Shown here one piece after another: positions 38,661 to 61,049 of a stretch of DNA of 64,000 nt. The notes under the pieces were generated by a model. It saw nothing but the letters and a program-made list of their open reading frames with translations, did not search any database and was not told where the DNA came from. The stretch comes from Desulfarculaceae bacterium. Its GTDB lineage: Bacteria; Desulfobacterota; Desulfarculia; Desulfarculales; Desulfarculaceae. The stretch spans positions 62,001-126,000 of the forward strand of contig JAHLKT010000008.1 in NCBI GenBank assembly GCA_020444545.1, read 5' to 3'. Every line of letters begins with the position of its first letter. The first letter of the stretch is position 1. The position numbers were made by a program, and so were the translations under genes.

Positions 38661-38756
38661 GCACCCAGCTTGCTTGGCCGCCCAGAAACGGAGCCCGCGC
38701 GGGGCCCCGCCAAGGCGGGCGCCGCGGCCGGTCCGGGCCGGCGCATCGGGTTCCTG

Positions 38757-38905
38757 GCAGGTTCGGCAGGTCTTCTGGCTTCCGGTTCTTCCTAGTCCCC
38801 GCGCCTTCCCGCCGCGCTGTGCGCGGCAGTGGCATCAAGGCGGGTTTCGTCCCCGGTTACAGCGGCGGGACCGCGACGGATTCGCACCGTCTTCCCTATT
38901 AAATC
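38757..38905 (-). ncRNA. Cobalamin riboswitch aptamer
   Basis: Read on the minus strand it has the conserved parts in order: GGGAA near 38896, GGTGCGAATCC, CGCTGTAACCG near 38858, GATGCCACTG near 38830, GGGAAGGCG, and the B12 box AGCCAGAAGACCTGCC at 38766-38781. These form the adenosyl/methylcobalamin aptamer core. Bound cobalamin normally represses downstream genes, here through the following terminator. Confidence 0.93.
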
Positions 38906-38934
38906 AAATGATGCCGATCCTGGTATGTGGGGAC

Positions 38935-59523: not shown

Positions 59524-60543
59524 TCAGGCCTTGGGGGCCTGGTACACGCCGGTGGATTCCCGTATCACCAAAGAGGACGGAATGACCACATGCTTCTGCT
59601 GACAGTGGCCTTGCTCAATTAATTCAATGAGATTGACCGCTGCGGCCCGGCCGACCCCCACCACGGGCACCGTGATGGTGGTTAGGGGCGGGTCGGTGAG
59701 CTCCAAAAGGTCCGAGCAGCCGATGGCCATCACCGAGATGTCCTGGGGTATCTTGAGCCCCCGGCTGTGGATCTGGTGCAAGGCTCCGGGGGTGACCGCG
59801 TCGTTGATGCAGATCACCGCGCTGGGCGGCTGGTCCATGTCCAACAGATCGCCCATGAGCCGGAAGCCGTCCGTCTTGGAGAAGTCGCTCTCCTTGACAT
59901 ATTTTTCGTTTAATTCCAAGTTGTTGTCCGCGAAGGCCCGCTTGTAGGCCTCCAGGCGCTCGATGGAGTACTTGGAATTCATGAAGCCCAGGATAAAGGC
60001 GATGCGCCGGTGGCCCAGGCCGATCAGGTAGTTCACCCCCCGGTAGACGTCCTTCAAGTTCTCCGAGCTGACGCTGGAGATGTCTTGCTCCATGCCCGCC
60101 GGGAAGCCGGGCACCACCACTGCGGGGATCTTCTGCTCGATGAGGTAGGGAATGTGCTCGTCGTCGATGCGGTTGGCCACCACCACTATGCCGTCCACCA
60201 GGCGGCGGTGATAGAGGTTGGCGTAGTTGTCCTGGGGGTTGATGTTGAGCATCAGGTGGTAGCCCCCTTGGTTGGCCACCGAGCTCAGCCCAAGCAATAT
60301 ATCGGAATAATAGGGATTCTGGAACGCAAACTCGCTGGCGCGCAGGATGACGACCCCGATGACCCCGATGCGGTTCTGGACCAGGGCCTTGGCCATGGAG
60401 TGGGGGTGGTAGTTCAGCTCGCGGGCCAGCTTGAGGATCTTCTCGCGGGCCTCGGGGTTAACCCCGGGCTGACCGTTGAGCGCCCGCGACACCGAGGAAA
60501 AGGAAACCCCGGCGCGTTTGGCGATTTGCTTGATAGTGGCCAT
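59524..60543 (-). CDS. LacI/GalR-family transcriptional regulator
   Basis: A 339-residue repressor: HTH at 1-50 (MATIKQIAKRAGVSFSSVSR, then hinge helix region SMAKALVQNRIGVIGVV) and a periplasmic-binding-protein-like ligand domain (60-335). Identical palindromes upstream of itself (60588) and of the next gene (59449) indicate autoregulation and control of the operon. The ligand is unknown. LacI-family members usually sense sugars, so control of an acyl-CoA pathway is notable. Confidence 0.92.
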   Translation of the reverse strand: MATIKQIAKRAGVSFSSVSRALNGQPGVNPEAREKILKLARELNYHPHSMAKALVQNRIGVIGVVILRASEFAFQNPYYSDILLGLSSVANQGGYHLMLNINPQDNYANLYHRRLVDGIVVVANRIDDEHIPYLIEQKIPAVVVPGFPAGMEQDISSVSSENLKDVYRGVNYLIGLGHRRIAFILGFMNSKYSIERLEAYKRAFADNNLELNEKYVKESDFSKTDGFRLMGDLLDMDQPPSAVICINDAVTPGALHQIHSRGLKIPQDISVMAIGCSDLLELTDPPLTTITVPVVGVGRAAAVNLIELIEQGHCQQKHVVIPSSLVIRESTGVYQAPKA

Positions 60544-60587: not shown

Positions 60588-60599
60588 GCAAACGTTTGC
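60588..60599. promoter_or_regulatory. LacI-family operator, site 2
   Basis: Perfect palindrome GCAAACGTTTGC, 45 bp upstream of the regulator's ATG (minus strand). It also lies 85 bp upstream of the + strand HesB-like gene. Confidence 0.8.
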
Positions 60600-60683: not shown

Positions 60684-61049
60684 ATGGTACAATTGAACAA
60701 GTGGTTTTCCCAGGCGCAACCTGATGTGCGAGTAGAGGCCCCAGTGCAGATACACATAAGCCCCGAAGCCCGCGACTGGCTGACCGCCCACGGCGGCCAG
60801 CTCACCATCGACCCCCCCGCCTCGGGCGGCGGCTGAGCCCCGGCCACCGGGGCGCGGTTCGCGCCCACGCCTCCCCGAGCCGGCACCGAAGGCCTCTACG
60901 GCCGTCACCGCATCGACGGGGTGGAATTGTTCGTCCACCGCAACCTGATGCTCACCGCTCCCCGGCTCACCGTGAGCATGGGCGGCATCTGGCGCTGGCG
61001 CTGGCTGAAGGTGGACGGAGTGGCCCCCCTGGCCGCCTGCGCCATGTAG
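60684..61049 (+). CDS. HesB-like (CC/Se motif type) selenoprotein, in-frame TGA read as Sec
   Basis: One frame runs from ATG 60684 (GGGAG upstream) to TAG 61047, interrupted only by a TGA at 60834-60836. Similarity to the HesB-related (seleno)protein family continues on both sides: VQIHISPEARDWLTAHGGQL before it and YGRHRIDGVELFVHRNL after it. Family members place Cys or Sec at this spot. A SECIS-like hairpin follows the TGA. Reading through gives 121 residues with Sec at 51. A GTG at 60744 would give a more family-like length of 101. The alternative is a gene with a nonsense mutation. Confidence 0.6.
60837..60866 (+). promoter_or_regulatory. Candidate bacterial SECIS hairpin
   Basis: Directly after the TGA, GGGCGC (60850-60855) pairs with GCGCCC (60861-60866) around the loop GGTTC, whose first base lies 20 nt after the TGA. 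Bacterial SECIS elements need an apical loop with a G at its start at about this distance. A competing stem GCCCCGG/CCGGGGC occupies 60837-60853. Confidence 0.5.

Follow-up and report, generated by a model that had tools for sequence, protein, structure and literature searches.

A divergent, predicted NF041239-family selenoprotein of the Desulfarculaceae that lacks the family's adjacent cysteine, has a C-terminal one and probably has a HesB/IscA fold

Results and discussion

We analysed a 64,000-nucleotide stretch of DNA from a Desulfarculaceae bacterium, referred to below as the window. The gene at 60744-61049, judged by comparison with its relatives, almost certainly encodes a selenoprotein of 101 residues, its in-frame UGA being served by SelB and Sec-tRNA-Sec via a hairpin 20 nt downstream. 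The product is very probably a divergent branch of NF041239, a known, uncharacterised family. What is new here is that the clade around this gene is mostly missing the adjacent cysteine of the family and always has a cysteine near its C-terminus; a kinship with the HesB/IscA fold is also added. The gene has the following features:

60744-61049, + strand: selenoprotein coding sequence, 101 aa, predicted Sec at residue 31; start at GTG preferred, ATG 60684 possible
60684-60743, + strand: possible N-terminal extension of 20 codons, leader-like (untranslated) by comparison with the nearest relative
60834-60836, + strand: in-frame UGA (TGA), predicted to be read as selenocysteine
60850-60866, + strand: SECIS hairpin, its stem counted as 7 bp closing the 3-nt loop GUU, or as 6 bp closing GGUUC
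61038-61040, + strand: codon for Cys99, conserved near the C-terminus and proposed to pair with Sec
61047-61049, + strand: stop codon TAG

Reading frame and start codon

A reading made from the sequence alone had proposed one frame from 60684 to 61049 with a single TGA. The frame holds, its only internal stop being the TGA at 60834-60836, but a start at ATG 60684 does not fare as well. GTG 60744 is the more likely start, because the 20 extra codons vary about equally at all codon positions and because the relatives have a start codon there. Compared with L016/L029, the closest relative (a MAG of the Desulfarculaceae), these codons carry 5, 5 and 7 changes at codon positions 1, 2 and 3, with one codon changed synonymously and eight non-synonymously; the remainder of the selenoprotein frame does not display such equal change over the three positions. 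At the place of GTG 60744, 17 of the other 18 Sec-encoding relatives have ATG, and the nearest one has GTG.

Evidence for selenocysteine at the UGA

The genome to which the window belongs harbors a tRNA-Sec with anticodon TCA (73.2 bits, G000:C8:13367-13460) together with selA, selB and selD (profile scores of 610, 398 and 379 bits). The selD frame is itself interrupted by one TGA. Within the window, TGA is an ordinary stop that terminates 16 of 32 long ORFs.

Among 98 genomes of relatives we found 20 NF041239 matches, distributed over 17 genomes; three of the 20 genomes of the family (G002, G012 and G017) have no such match. Exactly one TGA, always at the same site, occurs in 19 of the 20 matches. 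The sole stop-free match, L026, has Cys-Cys at the site and, lacking the TGA, stands outside our alignment A1. Six genes come from the genus that the window's genome shares with G001, and in all 15 pairs of these dN is below dS downstream of the UGA (in one example, dN 0.161 and dS 0.492). By this measure, purifying selection acts on the codons that follow the UGA. The sequence-only reading had argued for selenocysteine rather than decay and had named the sel genes and the state of the downstream frame in relatives as the places to look; both came out on the side of selenocysteine, as did the conserved TGA and the covarying hairpin described below.

The SECIS hairpin

The stem-loop downstream of the UGA reads GGGCGC-GGUUC-GCGCCC, and the first base of its loop lies 20 nt after the UGA. 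In a figure legend, PMC13188914 gives as SECIS criteria a loop of 3-9 nt with a G at its first or second position, a stem of 4-16 bp, a distance of 16-37 nt from the UGA and an energy of at most -7.5 kcal/mol. With a 7-bp stem, a GUU loop, a distance of 20 nt and an energy of -12.8, the hairpin of the window lies within these limits. When only perfect stems are considered, the same is true on all four counts for 17 of the 19 Sec genes of the clade, while L015 and L021 fall short of the energy limit. Every one of the 19 genes has such a hairpin, whose loop opens with G[G/U] and begins 17-20 nt after the UGA.

The hairpin stands out from chance. Of 300 synonymously recoded versions of each of the 19 genes, never more than 16 gave one as stable. 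Among 15 distinct hairpins, two-sided changes occur at five of the seven stem pairs, and stem covariation amounts to 0.254 against 0.146 in shuffled alignments, with none of 500 shuffles as high; sliding the partner lowers the score.

A free fold of the 47-nt stretch at 60834-60880 gives no signal over shuffles (z -0.42), since another hairpin, closer to the UGA, prevails. This competitor, at 60837-60853, is the stronger one in the free fold. Withholding the first few nucleotides downstream of the UGA abolishes it and leaves the SECIS hairpin as the best fold; a ribosome that pauses at the codon would presumably cover these nucleotides. The stem-loop that had been noted before is real, including its G-first loop at a fitting distance, but it is narrower than had been stated and is confined to 60850-60866.

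Can the UGA be explained in another way? A gene decayed by a nonsense mutation, with the first 30 residues alone as its product, would account for an in-frame stop taken by itself, and the whole 47 nt after the UGA folding no better than shuffles would suit it as well. We consider decay extremely improbable and reject it because homologs share the identical TGA (19 of 20), the SECIS covaries and selection past the UGA is purifying (dN below dS in 15 of 15 pairs); the genome has the Sec machinery as well. The UGA might also be read in another manner, through a reassigned code (Trp or Gly), through leaky read-through, or as a regulatory stop with a dual product. Read-through of UGA is known in bacteria in general. 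However, the many ORFs of the window that end in TGA rule out a code reassignment, the one Desulfarculaceae match without a stop carries Cys-Cys at this position, and a SECIS together with Sec genes suits selenocysteine, so that this alternative is very improbable, too.

Family assignment

The GTG-start form of the protein matches NF041239 ('CC/Se motif family (seleno)protein') with 49.4 bits at a cut-off of 40; the longer form scores 47.4 bits, and the score in the whole-genome search is 42.9 bits. The match runs across the TGA, aligning residues 1-93 of the 101-aa product with the whole 91-position model, which bears out the earlier claim of family similarity on both sides of the codon. The claim that the gene is 'unannotatable' was too strong, since NCBI has this curated model.

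The earlier suggestion of similarity to TIGR01911 found no such backing. Neither TIGR01911 nor NF038090 matches the window protein at E-values up to 10, and none of 31 aligned members matches them at E up to 0.01. Direct membership of either family is thus ruled out. Among the NCBIfam and Pfam models, none for HesB, IscA or SufA fits the sequence of the window protein directly, nor does any other Pfam model.

NF041239 (Moor_selen_rel) is described as a 'hypothetical protein predicted in Moorella thermoacetica'. The window protein is above its cut-off over the whole model and has Sec at the equivalent Sec/Cys site. It differs in that it reads GGG-U-A there, with neither the second, adjacent Cys of the CC (or CU) pair nor a CxxU motif, and in that the invariant C-terminal Cys of its clade falls outside the model. 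We therefore file it as a divergent NF041239 clade over the cut-off and not as a typical member. A 2026 review (PMC13188914) lists NF041239 apart from the HesB-like TIGR01911, as a hypothetical protein with CxxU. Among the papers searched, this was the only one with the accession, and the accessible part of the review draws no link to HesB.

The window's genome contains one Sec gene of each kind, NF041239 and HesB-like. Its own HesB-like selenoprotein is a separate gene at G000:C1:263380-263640 that belongs to NF038090 and has one in-frame TGA. A further selenoprotein with one in-frame TGA is SelD (G000:C1:335187-336113). The loci of the SelD and HesB-like NF038090 selenoproteins are labelled L039 and L058.

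A C-terminal cysteine, possibly in place of the adjacent one

The 19 Sec proteins form one side of a tree branch (support 92/86). Among their Cys/Sec columns, none but Sec31 and Cys99 is invariant. The adjacent Cys of the family is missing in 18 of the 19, being present only in L009, and a C-terminal Cys, Cys99 in the window protein, occurs in all 19. A Cys among the final eight residues also occurs in three of the 13 other members in the tree (L026, L084 and L086), and the clade is therefore not strictly alone in having a tail Cys. One relative, L056, has neither Cys of the CC motif. Tree and alignments leave out L087, for which the N-terminal part of the frame was not recovered, and the partial L091; L023 (ambiguous bases) was left out of alignment A5 only, and L049, a near-copy of L047, out of A2. 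That the clade largely does without the adjacent Cys while every member has a tail Cys suggests a switch of the Sec partner.

Tandem UGA codons in a sister clade

In a sample of 193 genomes from another order, seven of nine NF041239 matches carry a tandem UGA-UGA at the CC site, which predicts Sec-Sec (L057, L084, L085, L086, L088, L089 and L090). They come from three genera and two families and group on one branch (support 90/80). If bulges are allowed, a hairpin is found 21 nt after the second UGA in all seven; a scan for SECIS elements with perfect stems failed for most of these genes. Only two of the seven hairpins beat 95% of synonymous recodings. The family is credited with one Sec in the text of PMC13188914 available to us, and a literature search on consecutive UGA codons or adjacent Sec-Sec returned no relevant paper. 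The clade would test whether one SECIS serves two adjacent Sec codons.

Gene neighbourhood

The surroundings of the gene in the window are as follows:

59524-60543, - strand: divergent LacI-family regulator gene
60588-60599, no strand: 12-bp palindrome GCAAACGTTTGC between the LacI-family gene and the selenoprotein gene, kept in L029
61066-62337, - strand: convergent MFS transporter gene

The palindrome GCAAACGTTTGC resembles a LacI-type operator and may be one. The convergent MFS gene is present in all seven same-genus loci, the one in the window included; in the other six it was judged by sequence likeness only. The window also contains a cobalamin riboswitch (38748-38933, - strand, 119.9 bits).

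Other arrangements prevail elsewhere in the clade. In 8 of the 19 Sec loci (L061, L062, L066, L068, L069, L071, L072 and L078) the selenoprotein gene directly precedes a gene for a Bax1-I membrane protein, assigned by Pfam in three cases and by sequence likeness in five. Genes for a 2-oxoacid:ferredoxin oxidoreductase then follow in five of the eight (one gene by Pfam, the others by likeness). In the window's genome the Bax1-I gene is on another contig and this order is not kept. L027 (G010:C1:1308219-1308761) has an NF041239 selenoprotein gene with a HesB-like selenoprotein gene directly downstream of it; both proteins of this cluster have one TGA each and a Cys near the C-terminus. Upstream of L028 are genes for two ArsA-type ATPases (one of them checked) and a CstA-like gene. 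L024 has none of the MFS, Bax1-I, HesB-like or CstA-type neighbours, and L023, on a short contig with 1.5-kb flanks, was left out of the survey. The Cys or Cys-less relatives L026, L055 and L056 also lie near CstA genes. The loci listed near CstA (carbon starvation) genes, L063, L074, L075 and L067, comprise three of Cys-type or Cys-less kind and one Sec relative.

Kinship with the HesB/IscA fold

Two AlphaFold models were obtained, with pLDDT values of 81.0 and 82.8. For both, the top nine Foldseek matches are IscA/SufA/HesB-type proteins, followed by a gap to E ~4. The best E-value is 3.5e-3, all are above 0.001, and TM-scores are near 0.5. The matches include 9a4q_B (YneR), which we take to be HesB-type. 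In VIA-align, IscA (1r94) gave the highest Z, 8.6, with an rmsd of 2.7 for 84 aligned residues. Confidence in the models is among the lowest in the Sec loop and in the tail that holds Cys99.

Profile comparison points the same way. With hhalign, the clade aligned to 11 HesB-like selenoproteins at 71-94% with Sec on Sec; scores were 31.7-42.4, and none of 100 column shuffles was as high in any of three alignments. These HesB-like selenoproteins themselves find IscA by sequence and belong to NF038090 (two were tested, including the one in the window's own genome). The layout shared with TIGR01911 and NF038090 (HesB-like, IscA_HesB_Se) does not extend to their UxGP motif and Cys-rich tail, which the window protein lacks. 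A PDB sequence search with the clade profile returned nothing credible. PF01521 has no match in the window's genome, although the HesB-like selenoprotein is encoded there, and this absence therefore carries no weight.

On the strength of the models and the profile comparison, the product is probably an NF041239 protein that has the HesB/IscA fold and has diverged very far in sequence. The label 'HesB-like' from the sequence-only reading is therefore right at the fold level and finds no support in sequence models. A-type carriers (IscA/SufA/HesB) have three conserved Cys ligands. The window protein resembles IscA, SufA and ErpA in predicted fold, but identity is about 12-16% and it has one Sec and one Cys; the canonical three-Cys signature is absent from the window clade, where Sec31 and Cys99 alone are invariant. 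The A-type-carrier fold can serve other roles, DsrR of sulfur oxidisers being an example. DsrR (2k4z) is also alike in fold (Z 7.5, rmsd 3.1, 83 residues), but with 13% identity it has no close sequence relation to the window protein.

Possible function

Because of the fold, we lean towards a carrier. Once the ribosome pauses at the UGA, the hairpin 20 nt downstream would recruit SelB with Sec-tRNA-Sec. Sec31 would occupy the place of the first ligand Cys (or Sec) of HesB-type proteins, and Cys99, three residues from the C-terminus, would lie roughly where their C-terminal ligand cysteines are. A homodimer would combine two Sec with two Cys at a single site, which would suffice to hold a cluster. 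This site could bind an iron-sulfur cluster, a metal ion or a per(thio)selenide and hand it on, with the tail Cys replacing the adjacent Cys of other NF041239 members. Such A-type-carrier-like action is a tentative proposal, with somewhat less than an even chance of being correct. The Bax1-I and 2-oxoacid:ferredoxin oxidoreductase neighbours in related genera would suit an iron-sulfur client, and the gene neighbourhood, which is not kept in the window's genus, counts against our best explanation. That explanation as a whole, a Sec-containing selenoprotein with a HesB/IscA fold and carrier-like action, we hold to be a matter of even chances.

The same residues could instead do redox chemistry. 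In a thiol/selenol redox protein, Sec31 would attack a peroxide, a disulfide or an electrophile, Cys99 would resolve the product as an intramolecular selenenylsulfide that thioredoxin reduces, and neither metal nor cluster would be bound. Most selenoproteins are thought to have redox functions, as stated in PMC13188914 in the part available to us. The single Sec and the single Cys that are invariant in all 19 proteins would suit a redox pair, and adjacent UC, CC and UU pairs occur in other family members. However, the predicted fold is that of cluster carriers and not that of a thioredoxin-like enzyme, and the window protein has neither a UxxC nor a CxxU motif. A redox role thus seems possible, at clearly less than an even chance.

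Returning to the carrier, one may go further and picture a HesB-fold homodimer whose metal or Fe-S site is built from two Sec and two Cys. The family would then have used four sets of ligands at the same position: Cys-Cys, Sec-Cys, Sec-Sec (through a tandem UGA) and Sec together with a distant Cys in the tail. This is speculative, and we regard it as unlikely. If it is true, Sec-ligated iron-sulfur clusters would be the natural counterparts of the clusters that have been substituted with selenium artificially. The partner switch in the Desulfarculaceae would be a clean natural experiment. An orphan selenoprotein family gains a likely fold, that of HesB/IscA, and with it the testable idea that Sec may act as a ligand of a cluster or metal, and not only as a redox catalyst.
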